Below are positions 13,326 through 49,644 of a stretch of DNA of 60,679 nt, piece by piece. Source of the DNA: Rhodanobacteraceae bacterium (lineage in GTDB: Bacteria > Pseudomonadota > Gammaproteobacteria > Xanthomonadales > Rhodanobacteraceae); NCBI GenBank assembly GCA_003142815.1, contig PLNP01000035.1, positions 762-61,440 of the forward strand. Reading direction: 5' to 3'. The stretch's first letter is position 1. Each line of letters opens with the position of its first letter. Made by a program: the position numbers and the translations under genes. Below the pieces are notes generated by a model that had not been told where the DNA came from, searched no databases, and was given only the letters and a program-made list of their open reading frames with translations.

Positions 13326-13442
13326 TATTGGTCCGGCACTCAGAGTTTGAGTGCCTTCCGCTTGCCCTCTCCTGCGTCAGCGGGGAGGGCAACGGGGGAT
13401 TGATTCGATCGATTGGAATCTGAATTCGTTCCGAATCAATAG
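13326..13442 (-). repeat. triple-hairpin intergenic element, copy 1
   Basis: Read on the minus strand it starts TATTGATTCGG and ends CCGGACCAATAA. Stem 1 pairs TTGATTCGG-like and CGAATCAA arms, a C-run/G-run stem lies in the middle, and stem 3 pairs GGCACTCA with TGAGTGCC. It ends 28 nt before the efflux operon start and points toward it. The same element recurs at 32315-32435 and 49523-49644. Confidence 0.9.
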
Positions 13443-13515
13443 TGAAACGTCCTCGCGCGCGAGGACGCAGGTGGGCACGCATCCGCCCATCGCGCACGAA
13501 GATCGCGAGCGCATG

Positions 13516-14583
13516 CTATTTCGCGTGCGTGGCGGCAACGGCGTGCGGCCCGACCACCAGGATGACGAAGCTGTCCGCCTTCATCGCCGGACGCGTCTTC
13601 GGCTTGCCCTCGACCGGCGCAGGCGCCGGCTCGAATTCCGCGGCGGCGAGAAACACGCGCTGCGAAGGCGGGTCGATCGCGAGCGTGCGCGCACTCTTTT
13701 GCGTCGGCACGTTCGCGACCACCGTGTAGTGATCGGCATCATTCTGATGGATCACGGTCAGCGTGCCGTCCTCGCCGTTGGAACTGAATACGAGATGGCG
13801 TTGCGCGTCGAAGGCGACCGCATCCGGTCCCTTGCCGATCGGCACGTCGGCGACGTGGTGGCCGGATTTCGCATCGGTGACGACGAGCCGCCCGTTCTGG
13901 CAGACCGAGAACAGGCGCTGGCGCGCGCGATCGAGAGCGAGGCCGCTCGGTTCCTCGCAACCGGGCAGCGGCCAAGTCGCGACGACCTTGGCCGTGCGCG
14001 CGTCGATGGTCGTCAGCTCGGCGCGATCCTCGATATTGAGGTAGAGGCGCCCGGCGCCGTCGCTGACCGCGAACTCCGGCTTGCCGGTCAGCGCGATCGT
14101 GGCGATCGGCCGATCCGTCTTCGCGTCGATCACGGTTGCATCCTTGCTGTGCCCGTTGAATGTGAACACGCGCTGGGTTGGCTCATCGAAGAGGATCGCG
14201 TCGGGATTGTGGCCCTCGATCGGGATGGTTTTCAGTGTCGCCAGGCTCTTGAGGTCGAAGACGGTCACGCTGTCGCCGCGGCCATTGCTCGCGTAACCCC
14301 GGTTCAAGCCCGGCGCCAGTGCGACGCCGTGAACACCTTCGGTCGGTCGCACCTCACCGAGCATCTTGCCGTGGTCGATATCGACCACGGCGACATGATC
14401 CGAACGGGTCACGAACAACCGGTGCGTCGCCGCATCGAGGCTGAGATAGTCCCAGCCGCCGGTGCCGCCAATCGCCCAGCGCGCGTTGACTTGCCAGGTC
14501 TGGGCAGGACTCGAGTCGGCGACGGCGTACCCGCCGGCGGTGAGAGCGAAAGCAGCGACAGTAAACAACGTGCAAGTACGCAT
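13516..14583 (-). CDS. YncE-like exported beta-propeller protein
   Basis: A 355-residue secreted protein of the YncE/40-residue YVTN family. A signal peptide (1-22, ending GGYAVA) is followed by repeated blades of the type RVFTFNGHSKDATVIDAKT, each about 40-45 residues, consistent with a seven-bladed propeller. The biochemical role is not known; family members bind metal or DNA, or serve as scaffolds. It lies 23 nt downstream of the sensor kinase gene on the same strand, so it may be an output gene of the two-component system. Confidence 0.85.
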   Translation of the reverse strand: MRTCTLFTVAAFALTAGGYAVADSSPAQTWQVNARWAIGGTGGWDYLSLDAATHRLFVTRSDHVAVVDIDHGKMLGEVRPTEGVHGVALAPGLNRGYASNGRGDSVTVFDLKSLATLKTIPIEGHNPDAILFDEPTQRVFTFNGHSKDATVIDAKTDRPIATIALTGKPEFAVSDGAGRLYLNIEDRAELTTIDARTAKVVATWPLPGCEEPSGLALDRARQRLFSVCQNGRLVVTDAKSGHHVADVPIGKGPDAVAFDAQRHLVFSSNGEDGTLTVIHQNDADHYTVVANVPTQKSARTLAIDPPSQRVFLAAAEFEPAPAPVEGKPKTRPAMKADSFVILVVGPHAVAATHAK

Positions 14584-14606
14584 GGGAATGTCCTTGGCTG
14601 GAAGAG

Positions 14607-16037
14607 TCAGGGTGAATATCCGACACCGGCGCTTGAGGTGGTTGGCCGCGTCGCGATGATAGGCGCCGGAAACGCGATTTCGACGCGCAAGCCTTCATGT
14701 GTGTCGACGTCCGCGAGCGTCACACGCGCGCGATGCAATTGGGCGATACGGGCGACGATCGAGAGGCCGAGGCCGCTACCCTCGCTGATGCCGTCGGGCC
14801 CGCGCTGGAAGCGCTCGAACATCGACGCACGCCGCGCCGGTTCGATGCCGGGACCGTGATTGGCGATCGACAGTCGAGTGCCGCCGTCATGCTGCGCGAT
14901 GTCGATCTCGACGCGGCCGCCGGGGAAGCTGTAGCGAATCGCATTGTCGAGGAGGTTGCGCAGCAGCGTGCGCAGGCCAGGCTCCCAGCCATCGACGATG
15001 CAGGCCTCCGCTTCGCTGTTGATCGCGATTTCGAGATCCTTGTCCGCCGCCATCGCGCCGAGTTCCTGCAACTCTTCGTCGACACAGCGACGAAGATCGA
15101 CCGCTCGCAGTTCGCGCGTCGAAGTCGCCGCATCCCAACGCGCAAGTTCCAGCATCTGGTTGACGATGCGGGTCAGCCGGGTCAAGCCCTGCTCGGCTTT
15201 ACCCAGGGCTTGCGCGATCGCCGTGGGCGTGGCTGCGGCCTGTGCGTTTTCGATATGTATCAACGCACCGGCGACCGGCGTGCGCAATTCATGCGCGGCA
15301 TTCGCGGTGAACTGACGCTCGTGATGCAGCAAGCTGCGAACACGGCTCAAGAGACCATTGAGCGCCGCGACAACCGGCTCGATTTCGCGCGGCAGATCCG
15401 CGACGGCGACCGCTTCGGTATCGTCGGGCCGACGTTCGGCGAGTCGGTCGGCGAGCACGCGCAACGGTCGCAGACCGCGGCGCACTGCCCATCCCGCGAG
15501 CAGGGCAAGCAACGGAAGCCCGATCGCGACCGGCGCGACCGCCTCGATCGCCAGTGCACGCGCGATATCGTGACGACTGTCATAGCGCTCGCCGACACGC
15601 ACCCAATTCCGCCGCGCGTCCTGCAACGTGAATACACGCCAGCGCCTGCCACTGACCAGGATATCGGCAAAGCCGGCCGCCGCTGCGTCGAGAGGTATAT
15701 CGCGCAGATTCCCCGAGTTCATCAACAACCGCTTCGCAACGCTCCAGTACTGGAACCCGATCTCCATCTCGTAACTGTGACCGCGCACGGTCAGCGCCTG
15801 CTTGCCCTCTTCGTCGTGCCAGCTGGAAATTTCCAACGGCGTTTTCGCCGTGAGTGCGGTGGTGCCGGCGTCGGCGACCAACGCGCTGATCGTGCGCGCG
15901 CTCTGGGCGAGACGCGCATCGCTGAGTTCGTCGACCTCGCCCCTCATGAAGACGTAACTGAGCGTTACCAGCGGGATCAGCACCGCCGCGATGACCGCGA
16001 GCACGAGAACGCTGATACGGTTGCGCAGCGAGCGCAT
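14607..16037 (-). CDS. sensor histidine kinase (QseC/PmrB-like)
   Basis: Inner-membrane kinase, 476 aa. TM1 is about 8-30 and TM2 about 163-184, with a periplasmic sensor region of roughly 130 residues between them. A HAMP-like linker follows, then the H-box AAHELRTPVAG with phospho-acceptor H249. The ATPase domain carries the N-box NLLDNAIRYS (361-370) and the SGLGLSIV glycine box. The start overlaps the end of the response regulator gene by one base (16037). The ligand cannot be told from sequence. Confidence 0.94.
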   Translation of the reverse strand: MRSLRNRISVLVLAVIAAVLIPLVTLSYVFMRGEVDELSDARLAQSARTISALVADAGTTALTAKTPLEISSWHDEEGKQALTVRGHSYEMEIGFQYWSVAKRLLMNSGNLRDIPLDAAAAGFADILVSGRRWRVFTLQDARRNWVRVGERYDSRHDIARALAIEAVAPVAIGLPLLALLAGWAVRRGLRPLRVLADRLAERRPDDTEAVAVADLPREIEPVVAALNGLLSRVRSLLHHERQFTANAAHELRTPVAGALIHIENAQAAATPTAIAQALGKAEQGLTRLTRIVNQMLELARWDAATSTRELRAVDLRRCVDEELQELGAMAADKDLEIAINSEAEACIVDGWEPGLRTLLRNLLDNAIRYSFPGGRVEIDIAQHDGGTRLSIANHGPGIEPARRASMFERFQRGPDGISEGSGLGLSIVARIAQLHRARVTLADVDTHEGLRVEIAFPAPIIATRPTTSSAGVGYSP

Positions 16038-16699
16038 CAGGATTTTCCCTTGACCAGCAGATAGCCGAGACCACGCACGGTGCGGATCGCGTCGCTCGCG
16101 AGCTTGCGCCGCAACGCGTGCACGTGCACCTCGAGTGCGTTGCTGTCGACACCGGCATTGCCGTACATGGCCTGTTCCAGTGCGGCGCGCGTGACCACAC
16201 GCCCGGCTCGCTCGGCGAGCGCGCGCAGGAGTAGGAACTCGGTACGCGAAAGATCGAGTGTGCGTCCCGCGTAGCTCGCGTCGAATGCGACCGTGTCGAG
16301 CGTCAGTGCCCCGGCTTCGACGAGCCGGTGCGCGAGGCCGTTCGCACGGCGATGCAGCGCACGCAGGCGCGCCGCGAGCTCGTCGAGATGAAACGGTTTC
16401 ACCAGATAGTCGTCGGCGCCCGCGTCGAGCCCGTCGATGCGATCGGGCAGGGTGTCGCGCGCGGTAACGATCAATACCGGAATAAGGATCTTGTCGCGGC
16501 GCAATGCCTTGAGCACGCCGAGACCATCGACCTTTGGCAAGCCGAGATCGAGCACCGCGATGTCGAACGCGGTCGCGCGCGCGGCAGCCAGCGCCGCAGC
16601 GCCATCACGCACCCACTCGCATGTGTACGACCAGCGCCGCAGCGCATCCTCGATGCCCTGGCCCAGCAACACATCGTCTTCGACGACGAGAACATGCAC
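16037..16699 (-). CDS. OmpR-family response regulator (QseB/PmrA-like)
   Basis: Receiver plus winged-helix regulator, 220 aa from the GTG at 16699. Acidic pocket VVEDD at 5-9, phospho-acceptor D51 in AVLDLGLPKVDG, and the C-terminal Trans_reg_C domain with ALEVHVHALRRKL. The frame is open to an ATG at 16753, but that extension would start in the presumed promoter, so GTG is preferred. It is partner to the kinase directly downstream, and it may regulate itself through the box at 16754-16775. Confidence 0.93.
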   Translation of the reverse strand: MHVLVVEDDVLLGQGIEDALRRWSYTCEWVRDGAAALAAARATAFDIAVLDLGLPKVDGLGVLKALRRDKILIPVLIVTARDTLPDRIDGLDAGADDYLVKPFHLDELAARLRALHRRANGLAHRLVEAGALTLDTVAFDASYAGRTLDLSRTEFLLLRALAERAGRVVTRAALEQAMYGNAGVDSNALEVHVHALRRKLASDAIRTVRGLGYLLVKGKS

Positions 16700-16753
16700 G
16701 TTGGAGCGCGCCCTTTTCAGCCGGATCGGCCCAGCGTGCAGCTTACGCGGCAC

Positions 16754-16775
16754 GGCTTATACCAACCTTAAAGCC
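16754..16775 (-). promoter_or_regulatory. PmrA/QseB-like box and promoter of the two-component operon
   Basis: The minus strand reads CTTTAAGGTTGGTATAAG: half-sites TTTAAG and TATAAG separated by five bases, similar to direct-repeat PmrA/QseB boxes. The second half doubles as a plausible -10 hexamer. The outer bases GGCTT/AAGCC also make a palindrome. Confidence 0.4.
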
Positions 16776-16938
16776 TGCCATTGCGAGTCATGCCGCCGCC
16801 CTGCCGCCAATCCAGGTGCGGCGCACGCGAGCACGCACCCAGCGCCACATCGATCACACGCAGGTCCGCTTGATCGGTGCCGCCAGCGGGTACTTCGCGG
16901 GTTGGAACGGCGCTCGCACCAAATCGATCGGGCGCGGG

Positions 16939-17535
16939 CTACAGACATTCCAGCGCAGCGACCGAGCGCATCAGGCGCGGCCCGAGATACGCGTGCGATC
17001 CGCAAGGAAGCAGGCCGGCCTCGACAAACGCCGCGCGGTACCAAGCCGGCGAACGCGCGATAAAGCCCGTGCGGTCGCCGGATGGGTTGTCGCGTGCGAT
17101 AAAAACTTCGAGAAACGCGAGACCTTCGAGAAGATCGCCGAAACCGGACAGACCGCGACGCAATTCGGGCGCGGGGACGTAATGCAGCATATCGCTGCAC
17201 ACGATCAGGTCGAAGCGCTCGTCGAAGCGCAACTCGCCGAGCTGGCCGAACGTCGCCAGCCCGATGCCGCGGGTACGACCGTAACGCGCGACGGCATACT
17301 CGCTTGAATCGAGGCCGCGATAGTCGATCTTGGGCCGCAGCCGCTTCAGCGGCGCACGCCACGCGCCCTCGCCACAACCGACATCGAGCACGTTGCGCAG
17401 CGGCCGCGCCAGATAGTACTCGGCCAGGTGCACGACCATGGCGACCTTGCGCGCCAATTGCGCGCGCGAACCGACGCGGTGGCGTGGGTCGCGATACCAC
17501 TTCTGGAAATAGGCACGGTCATAAACCTTGCTCAT
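16939..17535 (-). CDS. class I SAM-dependent methyltransferase
   Basis: A 198-residue Rossmann methyltransferase. SAM motif I NVLDVGCGEGAW lies at about 48-59, an acidic strand-2 end (GLDSSEYAV) follows, and the motif IV region is DLIVCSDMLHYV. The substrate is unknown. The N-terminal YDRAYFQKWYRDPRHRVG text is typical of a small family of uncharacterised proteobacterial proteins. It is a stand-alone gene, with no tight operon partner, on the same strand as the two-component operon. Confidence 0.82.
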   Translation of the reverse strand: MSKVYDRAYFQKWYRDPRHRVGSRAQLARKVAMVVHLAEYYLARPLRNVLDVGCGEGAWRAPLKRLRPKIDYRGLDSSEYAVARYGRTRGIGLATFGQLGELRFDERFDLIVCSDMLHYVPAPELRRGLSGFGDLLEGLAFLEVFIARDNPSGDRTGFIARSPAWYRAAFVEAGLLPCGSHAYLGPRLMRSVAALECL

Positions 17536-17710
17536 GGATGCATTCGGCTTGGCGTCGGATCGCGCATGATAAGCGATGCGAGTCCCGCCTCCGCGTCGTG
17601 CGATGCATCACCCCAGCCTCAGTCGGGCGATGCGCCGGTAGCGAGCGGACGACGCCGCTACGCTGTCAGCGGCAGCCAGCGATGCGAATCGTCCGGCGCA
17701 GCATCAGTCG

Positions 17711-17739
17711 TTGCATATGCAATCGAATTGGAAAATACT
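17711..17739 (+). promoter_or_regulatory. palindromic operator and promoter of the Xre-RES module
   Basis: A perfect 12-bp palindrome TTGCATATGCAA (17711-17722) contains a -35-like TTGCAT. Seventeen bases later AATACT (17734-17739) can serve as -10. A degenerate second half, TTGCAcAGGCAA, follows at about 17740. This is a suitable site for autorepression by the antitoxin. Confidence 0.45.
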
Positions 17740-17767
17740 TGCACAGGCAATGACAGAGGGAAACACC

Positions 17768-18157
17768 ATGTCGCCGTCGATTTCTCCCAAGCGCAACCCG
17801 ATCGCCGATTCTGCGAGCGTGCTGACCCGCGCCGCGCTGCGTGCTGCGGACATCCTCGAGGTTCCGCAACGCACACTGGCCGACATCATCGGCGTCAGCG
17901 CCTCGACGATTTCACGGGCGGCGAGTGCGCGCGCACCGATCGCGCCTGCCAGCAAGGCCGGCGAACTGGCCAAACTCTGGGTGCGCGTATTTCGCTCGCT
18001 CGATGCGATCGTCGGTTCCAATGACATCGCCGCGCGCGCCTGGCTGACGTCGCCGAACGCCGCGTTCGGCGGTGAACCGCCGCTGCAACGTCTGCGCAGC
18101 GCCGAAGGTCTGGTTCACGTGCTGCATTATCTGGACAGCGCACGCGCTCGCTTGTGA
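17768..18157 (+). CDS. Xre/MbcA/ParS-type antitoxin
   Basis: A 129-residue antitoxin of the type II Xre-RES family. A Xre-like helix-turn-helix spans about 20-55 (LRAADILEVPQRTLADIIG then SASTISRAAS). The C-terminal toxin-binding half includes AWLTSPNAAFGGEPPLQRL, a hallmark of the MbcA/ParS domain. ATG 17768 has an AGAGGG ribosome site; an open frame from 17711 crosses the operator and is disfavoured. It presumably neutralises the RES toxin 136 nt downstream and represses its own promoter. Confidence 0.88.
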   Translation: MSPSISPKRNPIADSASVLTRAALRAADILEVPQRTLADIIGVSASTISRAASARAPIAPASKAGELAKLWVRVFRSLDAIVGSNDIAARAWLTSPNAAFGGEPPLQRLRSAEGLVHVLHYLDSARARL

Positions 18158-18293
18158 CACAGGGTGCGGCATCGCGAATGCAACCACGCCGGCGGCGGAC
18201 AGGCGCCGTGCAAGCGAAGGTGGATGGGGAACGCCGCGTGATCGCAATGCCTGCGACAGGCTATTGCCATCGTTCGCGGCATCGTGATGCGCG

Positions 18294-19037
18294 ATGAAGA
18301 TGATGACTCCACAAACCCTGCACAAAGCGGCGCGGCGCATCAACGCCAAGCCGTGGCGCGTGGTCGAGGCGCAGCATCGTGCGTCGACGATGCGCCTGGT
18401 CGATACACTCGACGAACAACGTGCGCTCGAGGATTTGCTTGAGGCGAGCAAGCCGCCAATGCCGCTGGAAGCCTGGCACCTGCATTATTTGCTGGCAACG
18501 CCGTTTCGCTACTCGGCGCCGCCGCCGCTGGGTTCGCGCTTCCGCAGCATTGGCGATGCCGGTGTCTGGTACGGCGCGGACGTGGTGGCGACTGCGCTGG
18601 CCGAAGTCGCGTACTGGAGGCTGCGCTTTCTCGCCGATTCGCCGGCGACGCCCGATCTGCCGCCAGTCCCGCATACCGCGTTCCGCGCGAGCGTCGGCGG
18701 CAGCGCGCTCGTGCTGGGCGATCCGCTGTTCGCACGTCAACGCAAAGCCTGGGAAGATCCGGCGAGCTATGCAGCTTCGCAGGCACTCGCATGCACGGCG
18801 CGCGAAGCGGGCATCGCGCTGATCCGCTACCGCTCGGCGCGTGATCCGGAACACCGCGCCTGCATCGCGCTATTGACTCCAAAAGCATTTCGCCAGCCGG
18901 CGCCGCTGGAACAACACATCTGGCTGATCAAGGTCTCGCGCACGCAGGTGATCGCGGAAACGAATCTTGGCGCCGAGCGCATCGCGTTCGCGCCAGAGGC
19001 GCTCGGTTTGCCGACGGCAATTCCGGTACGCCAATAG
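18294..19037 (+). CDS. RES-domain toxin (NAD+ phosphorylase family)
   Basis: A 247-aa toxin. Known RES toxins deplete NAD+ by phosphorolysis. The RES signature is seen as FRYS (R72), GVWYGADVVATALAEVAYWR (E104) and IRYRSARDPEHRAC (S181). It is somewhat longer than many RES toxins, with an extra N-terminal helical region of about 65 residues. The gap of 136 nt from the antitoxin is larger than the usual near-overlap, so the toxin may have its own weak initiation. No ribosome site stands out. Confidence 0.88.
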   Translation: MKMMTPQTLHKAARRINAKPWRVVEAQHRASTMRLVDTLDEQRALEDLLEASKPPMPLEAWHLHYLLATPFRYSAPPPLGSRFRSIGDAGVWYGADVVATALAEVAYWRLRFLADSPATPDLPPVPHTAFRASVGGSALVLGDPLFARQRKAWEDPASYAASQALACTAREAGIALIRYRSARDPEHRACIALLTPKAFRQPAPLEQHIWLIKVSRTQVIAETNLGAERIAFAPEALGLPTAIPVRQ

Positions 19038-19113
19038 TGGTTGGCGAGAGGCCCGGTCAAAGTGCGGTGCTGCCACCGCATTGGGTCACCCATTCGAACC
19101 CTTGGGGGCTCGA

Positions 19114-19314
19114 TCAGGTCGTCGGTCGGCCGCGCAATACCCGCGCCGGCAGCAGCACGATTGCGCGCAAGAATGCAAACACGCCCTCGACCGCAATGCC
19201 GAGCAACCGGAACGGCAGCAACAACAACCAGACAATCGGATACAGGACCAGCGCGAGCAGCGCCAGCGGCCAGCAGAAGACGAGCAGCAATACCCAGAGC
19301 AGAAACGTCAGCAT
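19114..19314 (-). CDS. small two-helix membrane protein
   Basis: A 66-residue, extremely hydrophobic protein with start ATG 19314. Leu/Trp/Val-rich segments (about 3-32 and 36-58) are broken by a short polar LLLPFRLLG turn, and the tail is basic. The function is unknown. I recall similar short proteins annotated as hypothetical in Xanthomonadaceae, which supports it being a real gene, but this is memory only. It sits between the RES toxin and the divergent M1 aminopeptidase. Confidence 0.6.
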   Translation of the reverse strand: MLTFLLWVLLLVFCWPLALLALVLYPIVWLLLLPFRLLGIAVEGVFAFLRAIVLLPARVLRGRPTT

Positions 19315-19483
19315 CGTTATACGACCGAGGCATGGAGACGGAGAGACAGTTTCGCGCAAGCAACGCGCGAGCGGGAGTGTCGAAAGGGATGCGGCGCGAA
19401 TACGGCACCACTGGGCCTTTCGCCACGGGTCGGCGCGGGAACCACGATGGCATACTGGGCGGAAGCTATCTGAGAACCCCCGC

Positions 19484-21394: not shown

Positions 21395-21419
21395 CCACTC
21401 CAGCGCGCAGGGTTGCGCG

Positions 21420-21450
21420 CCCTCTTCCCCAACAGCGTTGGGGAAGAGGG
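21420..21450. terminator. 14-bp perfect hairpin after the aminopeptidase gene
   Basis: CCCTCTTCCCCAAC and GTTGGGGAAGAGGG are perfectly complementary around an AGC loop, 25 nt past the stop codon. There is only a short CTTTC after it, so it may be a terminator or one of the species' dispersed hairpin repeats. Confidence 0.55.
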
Positions 21451-21583
21451 CTTTCGGGACCACCCAACGTGGGGAAACCTCAGCGTCGGAACACGTTGCA
21501 GCGTTCGGGTTTGCGGGCCCGCTGTGGCTCCGGCCAGCCGCATCGGCGATGATGACTCCTTGGCCACTCTGACGGGACACACC

Positions 21584-22339: not shown

Positions 22340-22466
22340 CCGCAGTGCTGCGCGAGCCACCCTCGCGCAGCGCGCACTGCTGTTGCGTGTTGCCGCCTTG
22401 ACCGATCGAACAAACAACAGCGCTGGCAAGGCATCGCCGCGCGGAAGCATTGTTGCACAATCGTTG

Positions 22467-29243: not shown

Positions 29244-29316
29244 GTAGGCCGGGCGCGTGCAACGCAGCCGGCACGCGACACGTAAAGCGCCGGCCGCGCG
29301 AGCGCGTCCGGCCTAC
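29244..29316. repeat. REPIN A (paired inverted REP sequences)
   Basis: Begins GTAGGCCGGGCGCGTGCAAC and ends GCGCGTCCGGCCTAC, two inverted REP units around a GGCACGCGACACGTAAAGC spacer. The right unit supplies the TAG stop of the RAYT gene (complement of 29313-29315). Near-identical pairs lie at 29929-30001 and 34349-34418. Confidence 0.93.
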
Positions 29317-29822
29317 GTGTTTCGGAGGCGATTCGCCGAGTCGGCAGCCCAATCAGGCGCATAGACCCCGGTACGGACGTAGCGCTTGAAGGTCGAATAC
29401 GGCCATGCCGACGGGGTCGCGGCGAGCCCATGCTTGACCGGGTTGTAATGCAGATAGTCCAGATGCCGGCCAAAATCCTCTGCATCGCGGATCAGATGTT
29501 CCCAGAAGCGTGGCTGCCAGATCGTGCGCCTGGATGTGTGTGGCGAAGCCGCGCTGAGGTTGGCGGTGAAACGCTTCTTGACGAGCTGCCAGCGCAGCGA
29601 GAAATCCGCATCATCCGGCATCAGTTTCCACAGGCAATGCAGATGGTCGGGCATGACCACGATGGCCAGTGAATCGAATGGGTGCGAGGAACGCGTGCAC
29701 TGCAATGCATCGCCCAACAGGCGAACGTTGTCCGCGTTGTCGAAGCACGGCCAACGATTAGCGGTCACTACCGTGAAGAAATAGGTGCCGCCCGGTTGGT
29801 ACAGTCGCCGAAAGGTACGCAT
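29313..29822 (-). CDS. REP-associated tyrosine transposase (RAYT)
   Basis: A single-copy HUH-type nuclease of the Y1/TnpA_REP family, 169 aa from ATG 29822. The HUH motif is H60-L-H62 in [10 protein letters not shown]. The catalytic tyrosine is Y126 in [11 protein letters not shown]. It is flanked on both sides by REPINs (29244-29316 and 29929-30001), the configuration expected for a RAYT and its cognate repeats. The ORF looks intact, so it may still mobilise REPs. Its stop codon is inside REPIN A. Confidence 0.93.
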
Positions 29823-29928
29823 CCGTGATCCGTGCTCGAGTGTTCCGCCAGCATCGGCACCCAGCGTTGATCTTGAAACGGGCATTCATTGACAGCGCGC
29901 GTACGATTTCCCCCCGTTTCACGTGCGC

Positions 29929-30001
29929 GTAGGCCGGACGCGTGCAACGCGGCCGGCACGAGGCATGTAAAGCGCCGGCCGCGCGAGCGCGCCCGGCCTA
30001 C
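29929..30001. repeat. REPIN B (paired inverted REP sequences)
   Basis: GTAGGCCGGACGCGTGCAAC on the left and GCGCGCCCGGCCTAC on the right. It is about 107 nt upstream of the RAYT start. The right end supplies the TAG stop of rlmI (complement of 29998-30000). Confidence 0.93.
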
Positions 30002-31182
30002 GCCACCCGGCAGAATGCAGCCTTGAGATAGCGCGATTCCGGTACATGCGCCAGCCACGGATGATCCGCTCCGGCGCCGGTCACCTTGAGGACCTGCACG
30101 GTACGGCCCGCGTAGAACGCGGCGCGGCGCAGCATGTCGAGGAACTGGTCCTCGCTGACCAGACCGGTGCAGGAACAGGTGAGAAGAATGCCACCCGACT
30201 TGACCGCGCCCATCGCGAGCTTGTTCATGTCGAGGTACTTCTTCAGCGCCGGGATCACCTGTTCGCGGTCGCGCGTCATCTTGGCCGGGTCGAGAATCAC
30301 GACGTCGAATTTCTCGTTCTTGTTGCCGGCGCCATCGCGCAACCAGTGAAAGATATCGGCCTGCACGAAGCGGATTTTTGCCTTGTTGAGGCGCGCGTTC
30401 CTTTCCGCGATCTCCAGGATTTCCTCGTCGAGATCGACACCGACGACCTCGTCCGCGCCGCCGATCGTCTTCGCGTAGATGCCGAAACCGCCGGAATTGC
30501 AGCACAGATCCAGCACGCGCTTGCCGGCGCAGAACTCCGATAGCAGCTTGCGATTGTCGCGCTGGTCGGCGAAGAAGCCGGTCTTGTGCTTGGTGCCGGG
30601 CGCGGCGTGGAAACGCACGCCGTGCTCGTGGATCACGGTTGGCTCGGGCGATGGCGGAATCGAGCAGTCGAAACTCTCCTGCTTCTGCACATGTTCTTCG
30701 GCGAACGCGTACAGGCTCGCTTCCGGGAAATGCTGAGCCAAGCAGCGCCGGATCACATCGCGCTGTTTGAACATGCCGGCCGAGAAATATTCGACCACCA
30801 AGGTATTGGCGAAGCGATCGACAACCAAGCCAGAAAGGCCATCGCCCTCGGAATGGATCAACCGATACGCGTCGGTCACGGTGTCGAGCTTCAATAGATC
30901 GCGGCGCAGTGCGACCGCGTCGGCGATCTTGCGCGCGAAAAACGCCTCGTCGACGGCCTCGTCCGGATTCATGGTCAACACGCGCAGCGAAATGCGCGAA
31001 TGGCCGTTGTAAAAGCCGCGCCCGGCGAAGTGGCCTTCGCGGTCGACGATGTCGACGAGGGTGCCGGGTTTGGGTTTGGGGTCCGGCTTCTCGACCATCT
31101 TCTGGAAAATCCAGGGATGGTTCGAGCGGCGTTCGGTCTTGAGCTGGATCAAGGGCAGCGCGCCCGCGGGTTCATGGTTCAT
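29998..31182 (-). CDS. rlmI: class I SAM-dependent rRNA methyltransferase (RlmI-like)
   Basis: A 394-aa protein with an N-terminal PUA-like domain (LIQLKTERRSNHPWIFQKMV), a middle EEHVQ-type linker and a C-terminal Rossmann methyltransferase: motif I VLDLCCNSGGFGIYA, motif II VVGVDLDEE, and motif IV DPAKMTRDR instead of the usual DPPKF. RlmI makes m5C1962 of 23S rRNA in E. coli; identity as RlmI versus a paralogue is likely but not certain. ATG 31182 fits the family start. The stop codon is provided by REPIN B. Confidence 0.85.
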   Translation of the reverse strand: MNHEPAGALPLIQLKTERRSNHPWIFQKMVEKPDPKPKPGTLVDIVDREGHFAGRGFYNGHSRISLRVLTMNPDEAVDEAFFARKIADAVALRRDLLKLDTVTDAYRLIHSEGDGLSGLVVDRFANTLVVEYFSAGMFKQRDVIRRCLAQHFPEASLYAFAEEHVQKQESFDCSIPPSPEPTVIHEHGVRFHAAPGTKHKTGFFADQRDNRKLLSEFCAGKRVLDLCCNSGGFGIYAKTIGGADEVVGVDLDEEILEIAERNARLNKAKIRFVQADIFHWLRDGAGNKNEKFDVVILDPAKMTRDREQVIPALKKYLDMNKLAMGAVKSGGILLTCSCTGLVSEDQFLDMLRRAAFYAGRTVQVLKVTGAGADHPWLAHVPESRYLKAAFCRVA

Positions 31183-32286: not shown

Positions 32287-32314
32287 TCGAAAACACCGCT
32301 CGCCCTGCGATATC

Positions 32315-32435
32315 TATTGATTCGGAACGAATTCAGATTCAGTAACCGAATCAATCCCCCACCCTTGCCCTCCCCCCGCTGGCGCAGGGGGAGGGAATGC
32401 GGAGGGCACTCAACCAATTGAGTGCCGGAGCAATA
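32315..32435 (+). repeat. triple-hairpin intergenic element, copy 2
   Basis: Stem 1: TTGATTCGG ... CCGAATCAA. Stem 2: CCCTCCCCC ... GGGGGAGGG around a GCTGGCGCA-type loop. Stem 3: GGCACTCAA, 4-nt loop, TTGAGTGCC. It ends CCGGAGCAATAA, 61 nt before the phhA ATG and pointing to it. Confidence 0.93.
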
Positions 32436-32496
32436 ACGGCGCACTGCGCGAGGTGAACCGCGCTAAGCTGTTGCCGATGAATCACGAGCCTAAGCC

Positions 32497-39137: not shown

Positions 39138-39145
39138 CTCCGCTC

Positions 39146-41791: not shown

Positions 41792-42664
41792 TTCGAAGTC
41801 TCCCGGCTTGAAGCCTCCTCGGGCAGGAGTTTGGGTTGGCTATGGACGAGTGCTCGAATGTCGAGGAGTTGCTTGACGAAGGCGCCGACGTGCTCGAGAT
41901 GGAATGCGTTCGGCCCATCGCTCTTCGCGAGTTGTGGCCGGGGATGGCACTCCAGGAAGAGCCCGTCCGCGCCCGCCGCCATGGCGGCACGTGCGAGAGT
42001 CTCGGCTTGCCGCCCGTACTTTTCCCGCCGCTTCCCGCGCCTGGAGTCTGAACCGAGTGGGTCGCATCGTAGATGACTGGCACGCCAAAACCCTTCATGC
42101 ACTGGAAGCTGATCATATCGACCACAAGCGTATTGTAACCGAAGGAGACTCCCCGTTCGGTCAACCAGAACCAGTTCTTATCGACCTTCGCGCCCGAACG
42201 GGTTTCGACTTCCCGGACCTTCTGAACAATATTCTTCGCGTCCCAAGGCGCCAGAAACTGGCCTTTCTTCACGTTCAGGCGGCGGCCACGCGCCAGCGCC
42301 GCTTCCGCACCAGCCACGATCATATCGGTCTGGCGACACAAAAAAGCGGGGACCTGCATGAAGTCGATCCCCTCGGCGACAGGCTTGGCCTGATCAGGGG
42401 TGTGGAAGTCAGTGCAGAGCCGGAGCCCCGTTTTATCGCGAACTCGGTCCATCATCTTCAGCCCCTCCACCATGCCGGGCCCTCGAAAGCCCTCGATGGA
42501 AGTGCGATTGGCCTTATCAAAGGAAGCCTTGAAGTAGAGGACGACCGGAAGAGAAGATAGCTGGCGTTTCAGTTCCTGCGCGACTTCCATGAGCAGCCCT
42601 TCATCCTCGATCACGCATGACCGGCGACCAAGGTCATGGGCTCGGAACTGCCGGAATAGGCCAT
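41788..42664 (-). pseudogene. kdsA: KDO-8-phosphate synthase, two frameshifts
   Basis: Condenses arabinose-5-P and PEP to KDO-8-P. Translation from ATG 42664 gives MAYSGSSEPMTLVAGH and then a premature stop. Adding one base at about 42616-42621 makes the conserved AGPCVIEDEG and opens the long middle (YFKASFDKANRTS, CTDFHTPDQA, NVKKGQFLAPWD, YDATHSVQTPGAG). A second single-base loss at about 42004-42016 (near KSTGG) shifts the tail, which resumes as LARAAMAAGADGLFLECHPRP. With both corrected the protein is full length. Confidence 0.85.
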
Positions 42665-42777
42665 CACTCAATCCCCTTCAAAGCGCGCTGAGCTCCCTTG
42701 CCCACTTGATCGACGTTCGAACGCAAGGGCGAGTACGGTTGGCTCTCCACGAAGCGGCATTCACGAAGGAGATCGCG

Positions 42778-43824
42778 ATGAACCAGATCCTGATCTACGG
42801 CGCGAACGGCTACACCGGCGCGTTGATCGCCGAGGAAGCCGTGCGGCGCGGACTCACACCGATCCTCGGCGGGCGCAATCGCGATGCGCTCGATGCGCTT
42901 GCGGAGCGACTGAAACTGAGTCGACGCGTATTCGAGCTTTCCGATACGGCCGAGATCGCGCGCAATCTCGACGGCGTCGAGCTGCTGCTGAACTGCGCCG
43001 GCCCGTTCTCGAAGACCTGCGCGCCGCTACTCGAAGCCTGCCTTGAACTCAAACTGCATTATCTCGACATCACCGGCGAGATCGACGTGTTCGCGCACTG
43101 CCATCGCACGCAGCCGCACGCGAGCCGCCAGGGTGTCGTCGTCGCGCCCGGCGTCGGTTTCGACGTGGTGCCGACCGATTGCGTCGCGGCGATGCTGAAA
43201 CAGCGTCTGCCGGATGCTAGCGAACTCGTGCTCGCGTTCGAGGCCGGCGGCGGCGCGAGTCCGGGGACCGCGAGAACCAGCATCGAAGGCCTCGCCAAAG
43301 GCGGTCGCGCACGCATCGGCGGTGAGCTCGTCGAGGTGCCGCTCGCCTGGAAGACGCGCACGTTCGAGCGTGCCGGCAGCAAGCGCAGCGCGATGACGAT
43401 TCCGTGGGGCGACGTCTATACCGCATACGTGTCGACCGGGATTCCGAACATCGAAACCTACATGGTGCTGCCGCCGCAGACGATCGCCCGCATGCGCTGG
43501 TTGCGATACGCGAAACCTCTGCTCGGTCTGGCACCCGTGCAACGCATGCTGCAAGCGCGCGCGTCCGCGGCATCGCCGGGGCCGGATGCAGCGCGGCGCG
43601 AGTCGACGCACTGTCACGTCTGGGGCGAAGTGCGCAACGCTGCCGGCGCCGAGGCACGACTCGCGCTGACCACACCGAACGGTTACGCCCTGACCGTGCA
43701 GTCCGCACTCGGCATCGCGCAGCACGTGCTCGACGCGAAGCCCGCCGGTGGCTACTACACGCCGTCGCAGCTGATGGGCGCCGACTATGTGCTTCGATTG
43801 CCCGGCGTCGCGCTCGTGGAATAA
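42778..43824 (+). CDS. saccharopine dehydrogenase-like NAD(P)-binding protein
   Basis: A 348-aa protein with the N-terminal Rossmann motif ILIYGANGYTGALIAEEA and the family text LLNCAGPFSKTCAPLLEACL. It belongs to the broad Sacchrp_dh_NADP / trans-acting enoyl reductase group, not to lysine metabolism proper. Substrate unknown. ATG 42778 has an AAGGAG ribosome site at 42766-42771. It marks the return of high-GC, host-like sequence after the kds-pro block. Confidence 0.82.
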   Translation: MNQILIYGANGYTGALIAEEAVRRGLTPILGGRNRDALDALAERLKLSRRVFELSDTAEIARNLDGVELLLNCAGPFSKTCAPLLEACLELKLHYLDITGEIDVFAHCHRTQPHASRQGVVVAPGVGFDVVPTDCVAAMLKQRLPDASELVLAFEAGGGASPGTARTSIEGLAKGGRARIGGELVEVPLAWKTRTFERAGSKRSAMTIPWGDVYTAYVSTGIPNIETYMVLPPQTIARMRWLRYAKPLLGLAPVQRMLQARASAASPGPDAARRESTHCHVWGEVRNAAGAEARLALTTPNGYALTVQSALGIAQHVLDAKPAGGYYTPSQLMGADYVLRLPGVALVE

Positions 43825-43959
43825 GCATCGCGATGCACCGCCGCGCGCCAGTCGCGCGCGCGCATCGGGGCGCTCAGCGAAGGCCCGGTAGCGCGCCCTT
43901 CGCCGAGCACGAGGAAAGCCTACGTGCAGGGCGAGCCGATACACGGTACAACAGCACCG

Positions 43960-43982
43960 CGAAGCGCACGACGTGCGCTTCG
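43960..43982. repeat. 10-bp perfect hairpin
   Basis: CGAAGCGCAC and GTGCGCTTCG pair around GAC, 28 nt upstream of the small membrane protein start. It could be a leader hairpin or an operator. Confidence 0.5.
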
Positions 43983-44010
43983 GACCCAGTCAAACCACGG
44001 AGATCACCTC

Positions 44011-44226
44011 ATGCGTATCGGACTCATCCTCGCCGGCATCATCCTCGCCGCAGTCGGCTTCGCCGCGTTCACCGGCAACCTCAACTTCAACCAGGACAAG
44101 GAAGTGGTGAAGATCGGCGGCCTCTCCGCGTCGGTGAAGCAGGAGAAGACCGTGCCGCAATGGCTCGGCGGCCTCGGCGTACTGGTCGGTCTTGGCCTCG
44201 TCGTCGCGGGTGCGACGCGCAAGTAA
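44011..44226 (+). CDS. small two-helix membrane protein
   Basis: A 71-aa protein with a helix at about 2-20 (LILAGIILAAVGFAAFTG), a short polar loop with the lysines of KEVVKIGG and SVKQEK, and a second helix at about 48-66 ending in ATRK. The hairpin topology suggests an inner-membrane protein of unknown function. The start is supported by CACGGAGAT upstream. A remnant of a methyltransferase begins right after its stop. Confidence 0.65.
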   Translation: MRIGLILAGIILAAVGFAAFTGNLNFNQDKEVVKIGGLSASVKQEKTVPQWLGGLGVLVGLGLVVAGATRK

Positions 44227-44228
44227 GT

Positions 44229-44690
44229 GCGATCACCCTGGTCCACGTCATCGAACATCTGGTCGAACCGCAGCGCCATCTCGCCGAGTGCGCGCGGATT
44301 CTGAAGCCTGCTGGCCGCCTCTTGGTGATCACGCCAAACGTGCGCTCGCTCGCGCATCGTGGGTTCCTGCGCGACTGGCGTGGCCTTGAGCCGCCGCGGC
44401 ATCCGCCACTCTACGCAGCGGGGGGCCTTCGGCAGGCACTGGCTAACGCCGGACTGGACGTAAAGCGGATCAGGACGAGCGCGCGCGATGCCGCCTATAT
44501 GCTGTGGTTCAGTGCACAGTTGCGAGCGGCGCGACGTGCCGCGCAACCACGCGTGGCATTGCGCACCAAGGGCCCCGCGTTGCGGCTCTGGCGGGGGCTC
44601 GAAGGCGTCGAGCGCGTCGCGGCCGCACTCTCGATTCCTGTCGGCGAGGAGATCGTCTGCCTTGCAGGTGTCGCACCTGCTTGCGCCTGA
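44229..44690 (+). pseudogene. 5'-truncated SAM-dependent methyltransferase
   Basis: The frame encodes the C-terminal half of a type-11 methyltransferase: ITLVHVIEHLVEPQRHL (post-SAM region), CARILKPAGRLLVITPN and RDWRGLEPPRHPPLYAAGGL. The N-terminal half with the SAM-binding glycine motif is missing, and no believable start lies in frame near 44229. An in-frame ATG at 44162 lies within the preceding gene and adds only basic, unrelated residues. Probably a deletion relic. Confidence 0.7.
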
Positions 44691-44756
44691 CGTGTGCCGT
44701 CGCGATGGCACGCGACGTACGCAGGGCTGGGCGATGATCGCCGCTACAATTACCGC

Positions 44757-47027
44757 ATGGACGTTTCCCATCTGCTCGACGGACTCAATCCGTCGCAACG
44801 CGAGGCCGTGACTGCAGCGGCGGGCGACTATCTCGTGCTCGCTGGCGCCGGCTCCGGCAAGACACGCGTGCTCACCCACCGGATCGGCTGGTTACTCGAG
44901 GTCGAGCGCGTGTCGCCGTGGTCGGTGCTCGCGGTCACGTTCACCAACAAGGCCGCCGGCGAGATGCGCGGGCGCGCCGAAGCGCTGATTAAGGGCGGCG
45001 CTCGCGGCCTCACGATCGGCACGTTTCACGGCATCGCGCATCGTCTGCTGCGCCGGCACTGGCGCGAAGCGAAACTGCCGGAGACGTTCCAGATCCTCGA
45101 TGCCGACGACCAGCAACGGCTGGTCAAGCGCACGATGCAGGGACTTGGCCTGGACGAAGCGCGCTTGCCGGCGCGTCAGGCGACCTGGTTCATCAACAGC
45201 GCGAAGGATGAAGGCAAGCGTCCGGATGCGCTCGATGCGGGTTTCAATCCAGTCAACCGCGTGTTGATCGACGTCTCCCGCGCCTACGAAGCGGCATGCC
45301 AGCGCGCGGGACTCGTGGATTTCGCGGAGCTGCTGCTGCGGGCGCATGAGCTGTGGCTGCAGGACGAGGCGCTGCTTGCACACTATCGAGAACGTTTCCA
45401 GCATCTGTTGATCGACGAATTCCAGGACACCAACACGCTGCAGTACGCGTGGATTCGCGTGCTCGCCGGACAGGGATGTCCCAGTGCCGCGAGCGCAGGA
45501 CGCGCAGGAGCGGCGGCGGGAGCCACCGGCCACGTGTTCGTGGTCGGCGACGACGATCAGGCGATCTATGGCTGGCGCGGCGCGAAAGTCGAGAATGTGC
45601 AGCACTTCCTGCGCGACTTTCCGAGCGCGAAGACGATTCGCCTCGAGCAGAACTATCGCTCGACCGGCACCATCCTCGCCGCCGCGAACGCGGTGATTGC
45701 GCACAACCCGGACCGGCTCGGCAAGCAGCTCTGGACCAATGGCGATGCAGGCACTGCGATCGAGCTTTACGCCGCGTACAACGAGCAGGACGAGGCGCGC
45801 TACGTGATCGAGCGCATTCGCGAAAACCTGCGCGCAGGCGCGAAGCCATCCGACGCCGCGATCCTGTATCGCTCGAATGCGCAATCGCGCAACTTCGAGG
45901 AACAACTGATCCAGCACAAGATCGCCTACCGCGTCTACGGCGGCCTGCGCTATTTCGATCGCGCCGAAATCAAGGACGCGCTCGCGTATCTGCGTTTGAC
46001 CGCGAACCGCCACGACGACGCCGCGTTCGAGCGCGCGGTCAACACGCCGCCACGAGGCATCGGCGATCGCACGCTTGACCTTTTGCGGCAGCACGCGCGA
46101 CGAGAAAATACATCGATGTGGGACGCGACAATCGGCGAACTCGCGGCGAATGCGCTCGCGGCGCGCGCGAAGAATGCATTGCGTGGATTTGTGCAATTGA
46201 TCAATGAGCTGGCGCGCGATTGCCTTGCACCATCCCACCGTGACGAAATGAAAGGTGCCGACGATGAGGCCGACGAACCACTCCCACTCGCCGAGCAGAT
46301 CGCGCACGCGATGGCGCGCTCGGGACTGCGCGACTATTACGAGAAAGACAGTCGCGGCAGCGCCGAATCGCGGGTCGAAAACCTCGATGAGCTGGTCAAC
46401 GTCGCGAGTCGCTTCCAACGCACGCCCGACGACCTCGAAGCGGGCCTTTCGGAACTGGCCGCCTTTCTTTCGCACGCGGCGCTCGAAGCCGGCGAAGGCC
46501 AGGGCGAGGCCTGGCAGGATTGCGTGCAATTGATGACCCTGCATTCGGCGAAGGGATTGGAGTTCCCGTTCGTGTTCCTGGTCGGCCTTGAAGACGGCCT
46601 GTTCCCGAGCCAGAAGTCGATCGAGGAACCCGGCCGCCTTGAAGAGGAGCGCCGCCTCGCCTATGTCGGCATCACGCGCGCGCGCAAGCACCTGCTGCTG
46701 ACCTACGCCGAATCACGGCGCCTGCACGGCGTCGAATCGTATGCGCGGCCATCGCGTTTCCTCGGCGAAATTCCCGGCGACCTGCTGCATGAAGTGCGAC
46801 CGCGCGTGCAGGTCAGTCGGCCCGCGTTCGCCGGTCGCTACGTCGACCACGCGGCGGAATTCGCAGCGCCCTTCAAGCTCGGCCAGCGCGTACAACATGC
46901 GAGCTTCGGCGAAGGCGTGGTGCTGAGTTATGAGGGCGCTGGCGCGCACACCCTGGTCGAAATCAATTTCGCCGACGTCGGCCGCAAGCGCCTCGTGCTC
47001 GCCTACGCCAAACTCGTGCAGCTTTAG
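44757..47027 (+). CDS. uvrD: DNA helicase II (UvrD)
   Basis: SF1A 3'-5' helicase in mismatch and excision repair, 756 aa from ATG 44757. Walker A AGAGSGKT at 29-36, motif Ia TFTNKAAGEMRGR, motif II LLIDEFQDTN, motif III VVGDDDQAIYGWRGA, motif V TLHSAKGLEFPFVF, motif VI VGITRARK, and a Tudor-like C-terminus (GQRVQHASFGEGVVL). Odd point: about 17 extra residues (CPSAASAGRAGAAAGAT region, 45471-45529) are inserted between motifs II and III. Confidence 0.95.
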   Translation: MDVSHLLDGLNPSQREAVTAAAGDYLVLAGAGSGKTRVLTHRIGWLLEVERVSPWSVLAVTFTNKAAGEMRGRAEALIKGGARGLTIGTFHGIAHRLLRRHWREAKLPETFQILDADDQQRLVKRTMQGLGLDEARLPARQATWFINSAKDEGKRPDALDAGFNPVNRVLIDVSRAYEAACQRAGLVDFAELLLRAHELWLQDEALLAHYRERFQHLLIDEFQDTNTLQYAWIRVLAGQGCPSAASAGRAGAAAGATGHVFVVGDDDQAIYGWRGAKVENVQHFLRDFPSAKTIRLEQNYRSTGTILAAANAVIAHNPDRLGKQLWTNGDAGTAIELYAAYNEQDEARYVIERIRENLRAGAKPSDAAILYRSNAQSRNFEEQLIQHKIAYRVYGGLRYFDRAEIKDALAYLRLTANRHDDAAFERAVNTPPRGIGDRTLDLLRQHARRENTSMWDATIGELAANALAARAKNALRGFVQLINELARDCLAPSHRDEMKGADDEADEPLPLAEQIAHAMARSGLRDYYEKDSRGSAESRVENLDELVNVASRFQRTPDDLEAGLSELAAFLSHAALEAGEGQGEAWQDCVQLMTLHSAKGLEFPFVFLVGLEDGLFPSQKSIEEPGRLEEERRLAYVGITRARKHLLLTYAESRRLHGVESYARPSRFLGEIPGDLLHEVRPRVQVSRPAFAGRYVDHAAEFAAPFKLGQRVQHASFGEGVVLSYEGAGAHTLVEINFADVGRKRLVLAYAKLVQL

Positions 47028-47158
47028 CAACGCCGCATCGCAGGGATCGACGTCGGAACCATCGGCCCCGTTACACGCAGACCGGATGGCGCGGTGGATC
47101 AAAGCTTCGTGTACTCGACCTGCATCCCGGGCGAATGGCATGAAGCATGCCAACAAGG

Positions 47159-47184
47159 TGGCTCCGCGATTGCCCGCGGAGCCA
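47159..47184. terminator. hairpin between convergent uvrD and kinase genes
   Basis: TGGCTCCGCG and CGCGGAGCCA pair around a 6-nt loop. It lies 132 nt after uvrD and 18 nt after the kinase stop (minus strand), so it may serve both. There is no long T-run on either side. Confidence 0.5.
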
Positions 47185-47201
47185 TCGATGTTGCTGTCCG
47201 A

Positions 47202-49244
47202 TCAGCCGCGCTTGCCGCGTGCGCGGAATTCGGCGAGGCGGCTGTCGACGTTGTCGAGCATCGGCTCGATCGCTTCGCGCGCCTTCTGCGCGGCGTTGAG
47301 ACTGGTGAAATTCACCTGCTCGCTGCCGCTCGTCCATAGCACGCTGCCGTCGGAAACCTTGTACGCCTTGACGCCGAGCTGCACGGTGTACAGAGTCGAA
47401 CTCTGCCCGTAGTACTGCATTTGCTGCGTACCGACCGGGCGCGCGTTGATGAACACGACCGCGTCGGCCTTGCCAGCGAGCGCGCCGAGATTCGGACGAT
47501 CACCGTGCGTGCGGCCGCCTTCGATGACGCGAAAGCCGCGGCTCTGCAGCAGGCTCACCAGCGCTTCCTCGGCCGGCGAGGAAATCACGTCGTCGCCAGC
47601 GGCGACCACCGCGATCGTCGGCACATGCGGCTTCGGCAGCGCGGCCGGCTTCTCCACCGGCGTCGCCTTGGCGACGCGCGGCGCGGGCGCCGGTTCGACC
47701 GCGCGCTCGGCGGCCTGCGCCGCGGGCAGGTCGTGCAGCGCCTGCATGCCGGCTTGCGATGCGCGCGGCGCAGGTGCGTCGGAAGCGTCGGCAGGCGTGC
47801 CTGCGGCATCGGCGATCGCATTCGGTGCTGCCGTCGCGGGTGGCGCCGTGTTCGGCTCGGGCGCGATCGCGGCGCTCGCCGCATTCGCATTCGTGGCTGC
47901 GGGCTGCTGCGTCATCGAGGCCGCGATCGCTGCCGATGCGCTCGGCACCGGCTCGGCAGTCGCCGACGCGTTGCCCGCGGCGGCGTTGCTGGCGTTGGAC
48001 GCAGGTGGCGACGTGGTGACCGGCGCCGTGCTCGCGTTGTTGCTGGCGACCAGCGTCGGTGCGCCGAGCAAACCGTTCAGAACCGGAATGCGATCGCGAA
48101 ACGCGTACGCGCCCGCACCGAACCCGAGCAGCAGGATCGCTGCGATCGCCCATGGCAACGCCGAGCGGCGCGGTTGTACCGGAACAGTGGTTGCACGCTC
48201 GAGCACGGATTGATGAACCGACGCCGCAGATGGCGTGCCGCCGAACGGCGGCGGCAGCGGCTGGCCGCTCGGGGTGATCCGCGTGTTCGCATCTGCGGCC
48301 GCGTTGCGCACTGGTGTCAGCGGTGTGTTCTGCAGCGAAGCCTGACCGGATATTGGCGTCTTGCGGCCCACCAAAGTCGCCGCGGCGGTGGACATCTTCG
48401 GCTGCGCCGTGATCGGGCCGCCTTTGGCGACCGGCGGATACACACTCAACGCTGCCACCAGTTCGTGGCAGTTCTGATAGCGTTCGGCCGGGTCCTTGGC
48501 GATCATCCGGGCGAGGATCTGCGCGATCTCGGCATCGACATCGGTGTTCAACTGGCGCACATCCGGGATGTCCGCTTGCACGACCTCGAGCATCAGGCCG
48601 AGTGGCGATTCGTCGGTGAACGGCATCTTGCCGACCAGCATTTCGAACAGCACGATGCCGAGCGAGAAGATGTCCGAGCGCTGGTCAACCGCTTTGCCGA
48701 GGCAGACTTCGGGCGACAGATAGCCTGGTGTGCCGACGAATTCGCCGGTCGAGGTCAGCTTCTGCGAGAAATCCTGGTTCGACAGCGCGATGCCGAAGTC
48801 CGCGATCTTGATCGAGCCGCGGCTGGTGATCATCAGATTGCCGGGCTTGATGTCGCGATGGACGACGCCGCGGTCGTGCGCGCTGGAAAGGCCGAGCGCG
48901 GTCTGCTGGATCACCTTCGCCGACTGCTCGACGGTCAGCTTGCCTTCGCGCTTTAGCATCGAGCCGAGCGACTCGCCTTCGACAAATTCCATGACGAAGA
49001 ACGTCTGCCCTTCATCCTCGCCGATGAAATAGATCTGGATGATGTGCGGATCGTTGAGCGCGGCCATGCTGCGCGCCTCGCGCAGGAAACGCTCCTTGAT
49101 GCCCTCGTCGTGGGCGAGCGAATCGGCGAGCACCTTGATCGCGACATAGCGGTTCAGCGAGGATTCGTAGCCTTTGTAGACGACGCCCATGCCGCCGCGG
49201 CCGAGTTCGGCGACGATGTCGTAATGACCCAAGCGCGTTCTCAT
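47202..49244 (-). CDS. transmembrane serine/threonine protein kinase
   Basis: A 680-aa Hanks-type kinase from ATG 49244. G-loop GRGGMG 15-20, ATP-Lys K37, catalytic HRDIKPGN 129-136, DFG 149-151, GTPGYLSPE 171-179. A Pro/Thr-rich linker and one TM helix (about 362-381) lead to an outside region: about 150 residues of Ala/Thr/Ser-rich low complexity, then a folded C-terminal domain (TIAVVAAGDDVISSPAEEAL to the end) that lacks PASTA repeats. Its target and signal are unknown. The leader has duplicated hairpins at 49259-49306. Confidence 0.92.
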   Translation of the reverse strand: MRTRLGHYDIVAELGRGGMGVVYKGYESSLNRYVAIKVLADSLAHDEGIKERFLREARSMAALNDPHIIQIYFIGEDEGQTFFVMEFVEGESLGSMLKREGKLTVEQSAKVIQQTALGLSSAHDRGVVHRDIKPGNLMITSRGSIKIADFGIALSNQDFSQKLTSTGEFVGTPGYLSPEVCLGKAVDQRSDIFSLGIVLFEMLVGKMPFTDESPLGLMLEVVQADIPDVRQLNTDVDAEIAQILARMIAKDPAERYQNCHELVAALSVYPPVAKGGPITAQPKMSTAAATLVGRKTPISGQASLQNTPLTPVRNAAADANTRITPSGQPLPPPFGGTPSAASVHQSVLERATTVPVQPRRSALPWAIAAILLLGFGAGAYAFRDRIPVLNGLLGAPTLVASNNASTAPVTTSPPASNASNAAAGNASATAEPVPSASAAIAASMTQQPAATNANAASAAIAPEPNTAPPATAAPNAIADAAGTPADASDAPAPRASQAGMQALHDLPAAQAAERAVEPAPAPRVAKATPVEKPAALPKPHVPTIAVVAAGDDVISSPAEEALVSLLQSRGFRVIEGGRTHGDRPNLGALAGKADAVVFINARPVGTQQMQYYGQSSTLYTVQLGVKAYKVSDGSVLWTSGSEQVNFTSLNAAQKAREAIEPMLDNVDSRLAEFRARGKRG

Positions 49245-49258
49245 GATCGATCCCCCCG

Positions 49259-49306
49259 GGGGCGACGCCCCATAACTGCAGGTTGGGGCGGATGCCCCGT
49301 AACTGC
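49259..49306 (-). repeat. duplicated hairpin in the kinase leader
   Basis: Two direct copies, each with a GGGGC...GCCCC stem and a flanking GCAGTTA on the minus strand, lie at 49259-49279 and 49285-49306, just upstream of the kinase ATG and its GGGGGGA ribosome site. Confidence 0.6.
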
Positions 49307-49522
49307 GATGAATCCTACACCGGCCTCGCAGGCCTCGCGCGGAACCTCTTGGCACCGCTTGGCGTGCATGGATCGTATACGTCATGTGAACGGGTTCGCA
49401 CATTCATCCGATTGAGGCGCCGCGGCGAGCCGCCTACACTCCGCTACCGTCTCCGCATCGCTGACTCGGAATGTCGAACTCGCACGGTGATTGGCGCAAC
49501 CCAGTGGTCGAACGGCACGCCC
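49307..49522. other. intergenic region between kinase and membrane protein genes
   Basis: No gene and no clear repeat are seen here. It must hold the divergent promoters for the kinase and, with the element at 49523-49644, for the membrane protein at 49731. Confidence 0.3.
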
Positions 49523-49644
49523 TATGGATTCGGAACGAATCCAGATTCGAGTCGACCGAATCAATCCCCCACTCTTGCCCTCCCCCGTTAGCGCAGGGGA
49601 CGGAAAACGGAGGGCACTCAAACTATTTGAGTGCCGGATCAATA
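49523..49644 (+). repeat. triple-hairpin intergenic element, copy 3
   Basis: Begins TATGGATTCGG and ends CCGGATCAATA. Stem 1 pairs GATTCGG with CCGAATC, and stem 3 pairs GGCACTCAAA with TTTGAGTGCC around CTA, with compensating differences from copies 1 and 2. It is 86 nt upstream of the TTG start at 49731 and points toward it. Confidence 0.9.

Follow-up and report, generated by a model that had tools for sequence, protein, structure and literature searches.

A 60,679-nucleotide stretch of a Rhodanobacteraceae genome (the window, meaning the whole stretch of DNA that was analysed) contains three copies of a ~120-bp element, each facing the start of a gene, and the question raised by this locus is whether the element is a regulatory module or a mobile repeat. 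The copies were found at the places and on the strands given in a preliminary description of this DNA, with their ends right to within 1 nt: copy 1 at 13325..13442 on the minus strand (TA-to-TA core 13326-13441), copy 2 at 32314..32436 on the plus strand (core 32315-32435) and copy 3 at 49522..49645 on the plus strand (core 49523-49644). They can be aligned over their whole length and are homologous, while the genes downstream of them are, as had been claimed, unrelated to one another. Our analysis indicates that the repeat is very probably a non-autonomous DNA transposon, a miniature inverted-repeat transposable element (MITE), which targets TA and was spread by a transposase acting in trans. 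Four observations support this reading: its many copies, its inverted-repeat ends, its restriction to one lineage, and one clear comparison of a filled with an empty site.

A covariance-model search of the genome and its relatives, as the preliminary description had proposed, was run with a model built from 30 copies, and uncovered a family in the genome itself. In this 3.2-Mb genome, a draft in 57 contigs, at least 71 matches were obtained at E <= 0.01 when the best 150 of 1116 first-look candidates were scored; a plain DNA search gave 42 matches (40 of 77 candidates scored). Chance would not produce anything like this number. Most matches (62/71) are 105-127 bp long and the other nine 56-95 bp, and identity to the consensus ranges from 81 to 97%, with a median of 91%. 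Sixty-eight copies lie between predicted genes or at gene ends, two mostly within a predicted gene, and one, at a contig end, has no flanking gene. By strand, 38 are on the minus and 33 on the plus, the orientation of the contigs being unknown. The element is short, multi-copy, dispersed and protein-less, as is expected of a MITE. One contig of 218,928 bp (C19) was observed to carry a single copy, where about five would be expected from the average density.

The ends of the element are those of a transposon. Consensus copies start with CTATTGATTCGG and end with CCGGATCAATAA, which form a 12-bp inverted repeat with TA at each terminus. The terminal repeat YTATTGATYCGG, found at both ends as in other MITEs, has 56 exact sites in the genome and none in a reversed-pattern control, and only 3 in 15 congeners combined; with one mismatch allowed there are 133 sites against 2 in the control. 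In copy 2, all on the plus strand, the left terminal inverted repeat CTATTGATTCGG occupies 32314..32325, of which 32316-32325 doubles as the 5' arm of stem 1, and the 3' arm CCGAATCAAT at 32346..32355 repeats the terminal sequence in inverted form within the element. Stem 2, a C-run/G-run hairpin, folds from 32368..32395, stem 3 (GGCACTCAA/TTGAGTGCC) from 32405..32426, and the right terminal inverted repeat CCGGAGCAATAA lies at 32425..32436. The three stems described for each element were seen, and copy 2, the copy that was folded, folds far better than its shuffles: with DNA parameters the z-score is -7.2 and with RNA parameters -5.3, and 0/200 shuffles are as good in either. Two details of the preliminary description had to be corrected. 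The common start sequence does not extend to copy 3, which starts with TATGGATTCGG (TATGG) and not with TATTGATTCGG. Stem 3 of copy 3 had been said to be altered on both arms with pairing kept; its arms GGCACTCA/TGAGTGCC are in fact identical in all three copies, which differ in this stem only at the apex.

The same ends were also found around other DNA. We read by eye 21 terminal-repeat sites lying outside the 71 matches, five of them exact and the others with one mismatch, not all of the 133 sites being listed. Among these is a ~180-bp fold-back family of four loci (C24:2452-2629, and one locus each on C10, C5 and C55), which has the same terminal repeat and an unrelated inside. A ~98-bp family of two loci (C31:4295 and C8:86636) likewise has the terminal repeat in common with the element and an unrelated inside; at a third site of this type, on C38, the likeness is limited to the first ~28 bases. 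Since the same terminal repeats cap unrelated insides, this suggests that one transposase may have acted in trans on different insides. The open reading frames at two of the terminal-repeat loci outside the model contain nothing recognisable as a transposase, no family search having been made on them.

Evidence for insertion also comes from gene ends. In ten of the 71 copies a predicted gene runs exactly 7 nt into the element and takes its stop codon from it, reading TAT TGA in eight and GAT TGA in two. One of these ten genes is cyoE, encoding heme o synthase, which we compared with its orthologues in 15 congeners. An orthologue was obtained from 14 (the fifteenth gave only a 26% paralogue and was omitted), and 13 of these C-termini could be read, the remaining orthologue being a fragment short of the end. 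In 11 of the 13 the alignment runs through residue 304 and the stop follows directly; in the remaining two it reaches residues 303 and 290, with stops 1 and 13 codons on, which is compatible with an end at about residue 304. At the filled site the element gives TAT TGA after residue 304, and past its other end the sequence resumes with TA-G. Removal of the element with one TA restores GGT TAG, and therefore the TA was duplicated. Such a target-site duplication, a mark of MITEs, is seen at cyoE, and a tandem pair at C26:31894-32140 fits it, its two members having the junction TA in common as if the second copy had entered the terminal TA of the first. In a BLAST search of flanks for nested insertions, this pair alone was informative.

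The family is restricted to a narrow lineage. The covariance model gave no match in 60 relatives, the 15 congeners among them. A second model, run with stricter filters over 233 genomes of the bacterial family including the host's own (15 candidates scored per genome where listed), matched at E <= 1e-5 in five other genomes, all of one genus, and in none of the 15 congeners. Three of these (G211, G195 and G212) have in common one orthologous site, at L284:1361-1481 and in L285 and L287, where the cytochrome c1 gene (PF02167) ends 7 nt inside a related element, the offset also seen in the ten copies above, and an SspA-like gene comes next. The SspA-like label is below NCBIfam's cut-off, and L284 is the one genome of the three in which the gene ends and families were confirmed. 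G195 and G211 each have a second match besides. Among the three orthologous copies one compensatory change in stem 3 was noticed by eye. The matches read in the remaining two genomes (G217 and G184) appear by eye to be another repeat that has the C-run hairpin in common. In wider collections, an exact search of genome_contigs, from which the own or a very near genome was possibly left out, did not find the 24-base core, and one of viral_contigs did not find a 20-mer. No phage matched the element, and a plasmid search returned 11 Azospirillum records, in which the match is confined to query positions 43-87 and so extends into the C-run hairpin. The host is probably a Dokdonella or belongs to a near genus, as judged by its FolP protein, whose best named relative is that of Dokdonella fugitiva (77%).

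Several observations weigh against the identification of the element as a MITE. For the TA duplication the main support is a single site, cyoE. A comparison at folP, for which 80 orthologues were fetched and 30 read, is weak: 10 of the 30 stop directly after the aligned end, as expected, and these include the two nearest relatives, but 20 of 30 read the stop one codon later, as the host's own folP does. The LpxL-like gene at C21 is uninformative on the empty site, its C-terminus being variable. The base outside the termini is asymmetric, with CTA in 30 of 51 left ends that have an intact TTGAT and TAA in 27 of 51 right ends; therefore either the target is oriented or this base is part of the element. 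No transposase with the element's terminal repeats was found in the 57-contig draft with PF13358, PF01609 and PF01797. The first of these (DDE_3) had 0 matches; PF01609 had 2, neither of which has the terminal repeat, even allowing one mismatch, in the ~3 kb around it; and PF01797 (Y1_Tnp) had four, which are considered below. Lastly, the stems are better kept than the rest: identity to the consensus is 92.8% in stem columns, against 87.2% for unpaired and 83.6% for terminal columns. Covariation is above that of shuffles, though small. In 53 copies at E <= 1e-16, in an alignment fitted to the three-stem structure, 89.2% of 1962 cells are paired against 88.3% in shuffles, with double changes in 11 of 38 pairs against 5.0 and in 17 of the 1962 cells against 8.7. 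Seven of the 11 pairs belong to stem 2, and shifting the partner columns by -3 or +2 gave the same 11 double-change pairs (16 or 19 cells) with far fewer paired cells. These figures would allow some selection on structure, or hairpin-templated correction; they do not point to a conserved regulatory RNA.

The stem data bear on a first alternative, namely that the element is a mobile 5'-leader or promoter module, kept because it regulates downstream genes. This was one of the possibilities raised in the preliminary description, and we regard it as very unlikely. The better conservation of stems than of loops and the small excess of covariation are in its favour, as is the orientation of the three copies in the window, each towards a gene start. 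The latter claim is correct for the window and breaks down across the genome, where for 23 of 68 copies the gene on the 3' side points back at the element. With genes predicted by a rough codon-usage script, 68 of the 71 copies were classifiable; in the orientation of the element, 24 have both genes forward, 14 both reversed, 21 are in divergent and 9 in convergent gaps. A forward gene on the 3' side is thus found for 45 of 68 (p = 0.010 against one half), and the median distance to a gene start is 60 nt on that side as compared with 125 nt for starts on the other, a mild lean. However, the lean arises largely because the 21 divergent gaps always count, so that 21 plus half of the 38 codirectional, or 40, would be expected. 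Within codirectional gaps the orientation of 24 versus 14 gives p = 0.14. The layout of 38 codirectional, 21 divergent and 9 convergent gaps agrees with the 37.1, 23.0 and 7.9 expected from intergenic TA sites of the same stretches (840, 521 and 179 sites; p = 0.84), a null which is not independent since these stretches were chosen around copies. A regulatory leader would be expected to keep a fixed orientation and placement with respect to the starts of genes, and this was not found. There was no match to Rfam in the window at gathering scores and no sigma-70-like promoter or intrinsic terminator around copy 2, the copy that was scanned, and the unrelated genes after the window copies also argue against common regulation. 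On the layout, the orientation and the absence from the 15 congeners, we rejected a regulatory leader or promoter module. The placement before genes is as expected if copies landed at random in spare DNA, with no sign of a common gene switch. The preliminary description had held that random orientation and position without covariation would make it an ordinary REP/MITE; a fit to randomness was found, and the absence of covariation was not cleanly so, given the small excess over shuffles.

A second alternative, which we regard as extremely improbable, is that the repeats are of the repetitive extragenic palindromic (REP) or bacterial interspersed mosaic element (BIME) kind, moved by a REP-associated tyrosine transposase (RAYT). 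The element does resemble such repeats in being palindromic, intergenic and high-copy, and one of the four Y1_Tnp matches in the genome lies within the window at 29313-29822 on the minus strand, ~2.5 kb from copy 2. A GTAG start beside a hairpin marks REPs. The window gene has palindromes of this GTAG type on both sides (29244-29316 and 29927-30003), but these are its own; they start with GTAGGCCGG and are unrelated to the element. The element starts with CTATTGATTCGG and has no GTAG-type start; a REP moved by a RAYT was rejected. Unlike REPs it carries inverted repeats at its termini, and a TA duplication would account for its cyoE site. No match to the element lies within 18 kb of the Y1_Tnp genes on C19 and C26. 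As for a DNA-binding or chromosome-organising site that is no transposon at all, the repeated palindromes fit it, as does a leftmost stretch of 27 bases that is in large part strongly conserved, but the lineage-restricted dispersal, the TA-flanked termini, the insertion at stop codons, the unrelated insides with only termini in common and the mixture of strands leave it next to no probability.

The MITE named among the possibilities in the preliminary description is thus the one supported, by terminal repeats, TA ends, the cyoE site and the dispersal. Since the target is TA, we infer that the transposase would be a DDE-type enzyme of the IS630/Tc1-mariner style, able to act in trans on any DNA capped by the terminal repeat. 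Copies would have inserted at TA sites regardless of gene orientation, with duplication of the TA, and the transposase may since have been lost, have drifted, or lie in an assembly gap. The copies that survive would be those outside coding sequence or exactly at stop codons, the latter because the ends read TATTGA and rebuild the stop. If a copy is transcribed, strong hairpins would form in its RNA and might have an effect, which would be incidental, on that single transcript. The neighbours of copy 2 are a rhombosortase-like gene (a match below the NCBIfam cut-off) ending 27 nt before it and the phenylalanine 4-monooxygenase gene, which begins 60 nt after it.

Both ends of the element read TATTGA, so that a TAA or TAG stop hit by the element, whichever way round, is replaced by an in-frame TGA one tyrosine further on. 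The terminal repeat could conceivably be tuned so that insertions do no harm, gene ends serving as a safe niche, although we think this unlikely. The 10 stop-supplying copies out of 71 compare with 144 of 1856 available TA sites (7.8%; p = 0.07). Pointers towards a stop-tuned end are that it is common to two unrelated families and that the related element of the other genus, at one orthologous site in three genomes, holds the stop codon of cytochrome c1.

The element is a new family of a known kind, to be compared with Correia, RUP and ERIC, and it probably works as these do; the likeness considered here is one of general features. In PMC2229807 all three are described as having TA termini and target duplications. 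RUP of Streptococcus pneumoniae is there a short, protein-less repeat with 9-bp terminal inverted repeats, for which the IS630-Spn1 transposase is the proposed mover in trans; the present element resembles it in all these general features (length, lack of protein, inverted-repeat ends, TA termini and duplication), whereas its host and interior are different and its genome has no PF13358 match. Correia/NEMIS of Neisseria is a MITE with forms of ~107 and 155 bp and terminal inverted repeats, often directly upstream of genes (PMC2229807, PMC10969869). It is alike in its inverted-repeat ends, TA termini and target duplication, and different in that its terminal repeats are 24 bp as against 12 bp in the present element. 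For Correia, PMC10969869 reviews promoters, an IHF site and cleavage by RNase III; around copy 2 no promoter-like site was found. ERIC (IRU, RU-1) of enterobacteria, 127 bp long with TA termini, 7-bp terminal repeats and target duplication, belongs to the same length class and differs in host group; it is reported to affect mRNA stability in a manner that depends on its orientation (PMC2229807).

Among the titles listed in our literature search none was on a MITE or repeat element of such a kind in Dokdonella, and the present work adds a MITE family in a Dokdonella-like member of the Rhodanobacteraceae. It also illustrates that a few copies within one window can resemble a regulatory module. 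An end that rebuilds a stop codon offers a simple and testable idea of how a transposon may lower its cost to the host, and the ~70 insertions provide a natural resource for finding out whether mRNA processing is changed by inserted hairpins.

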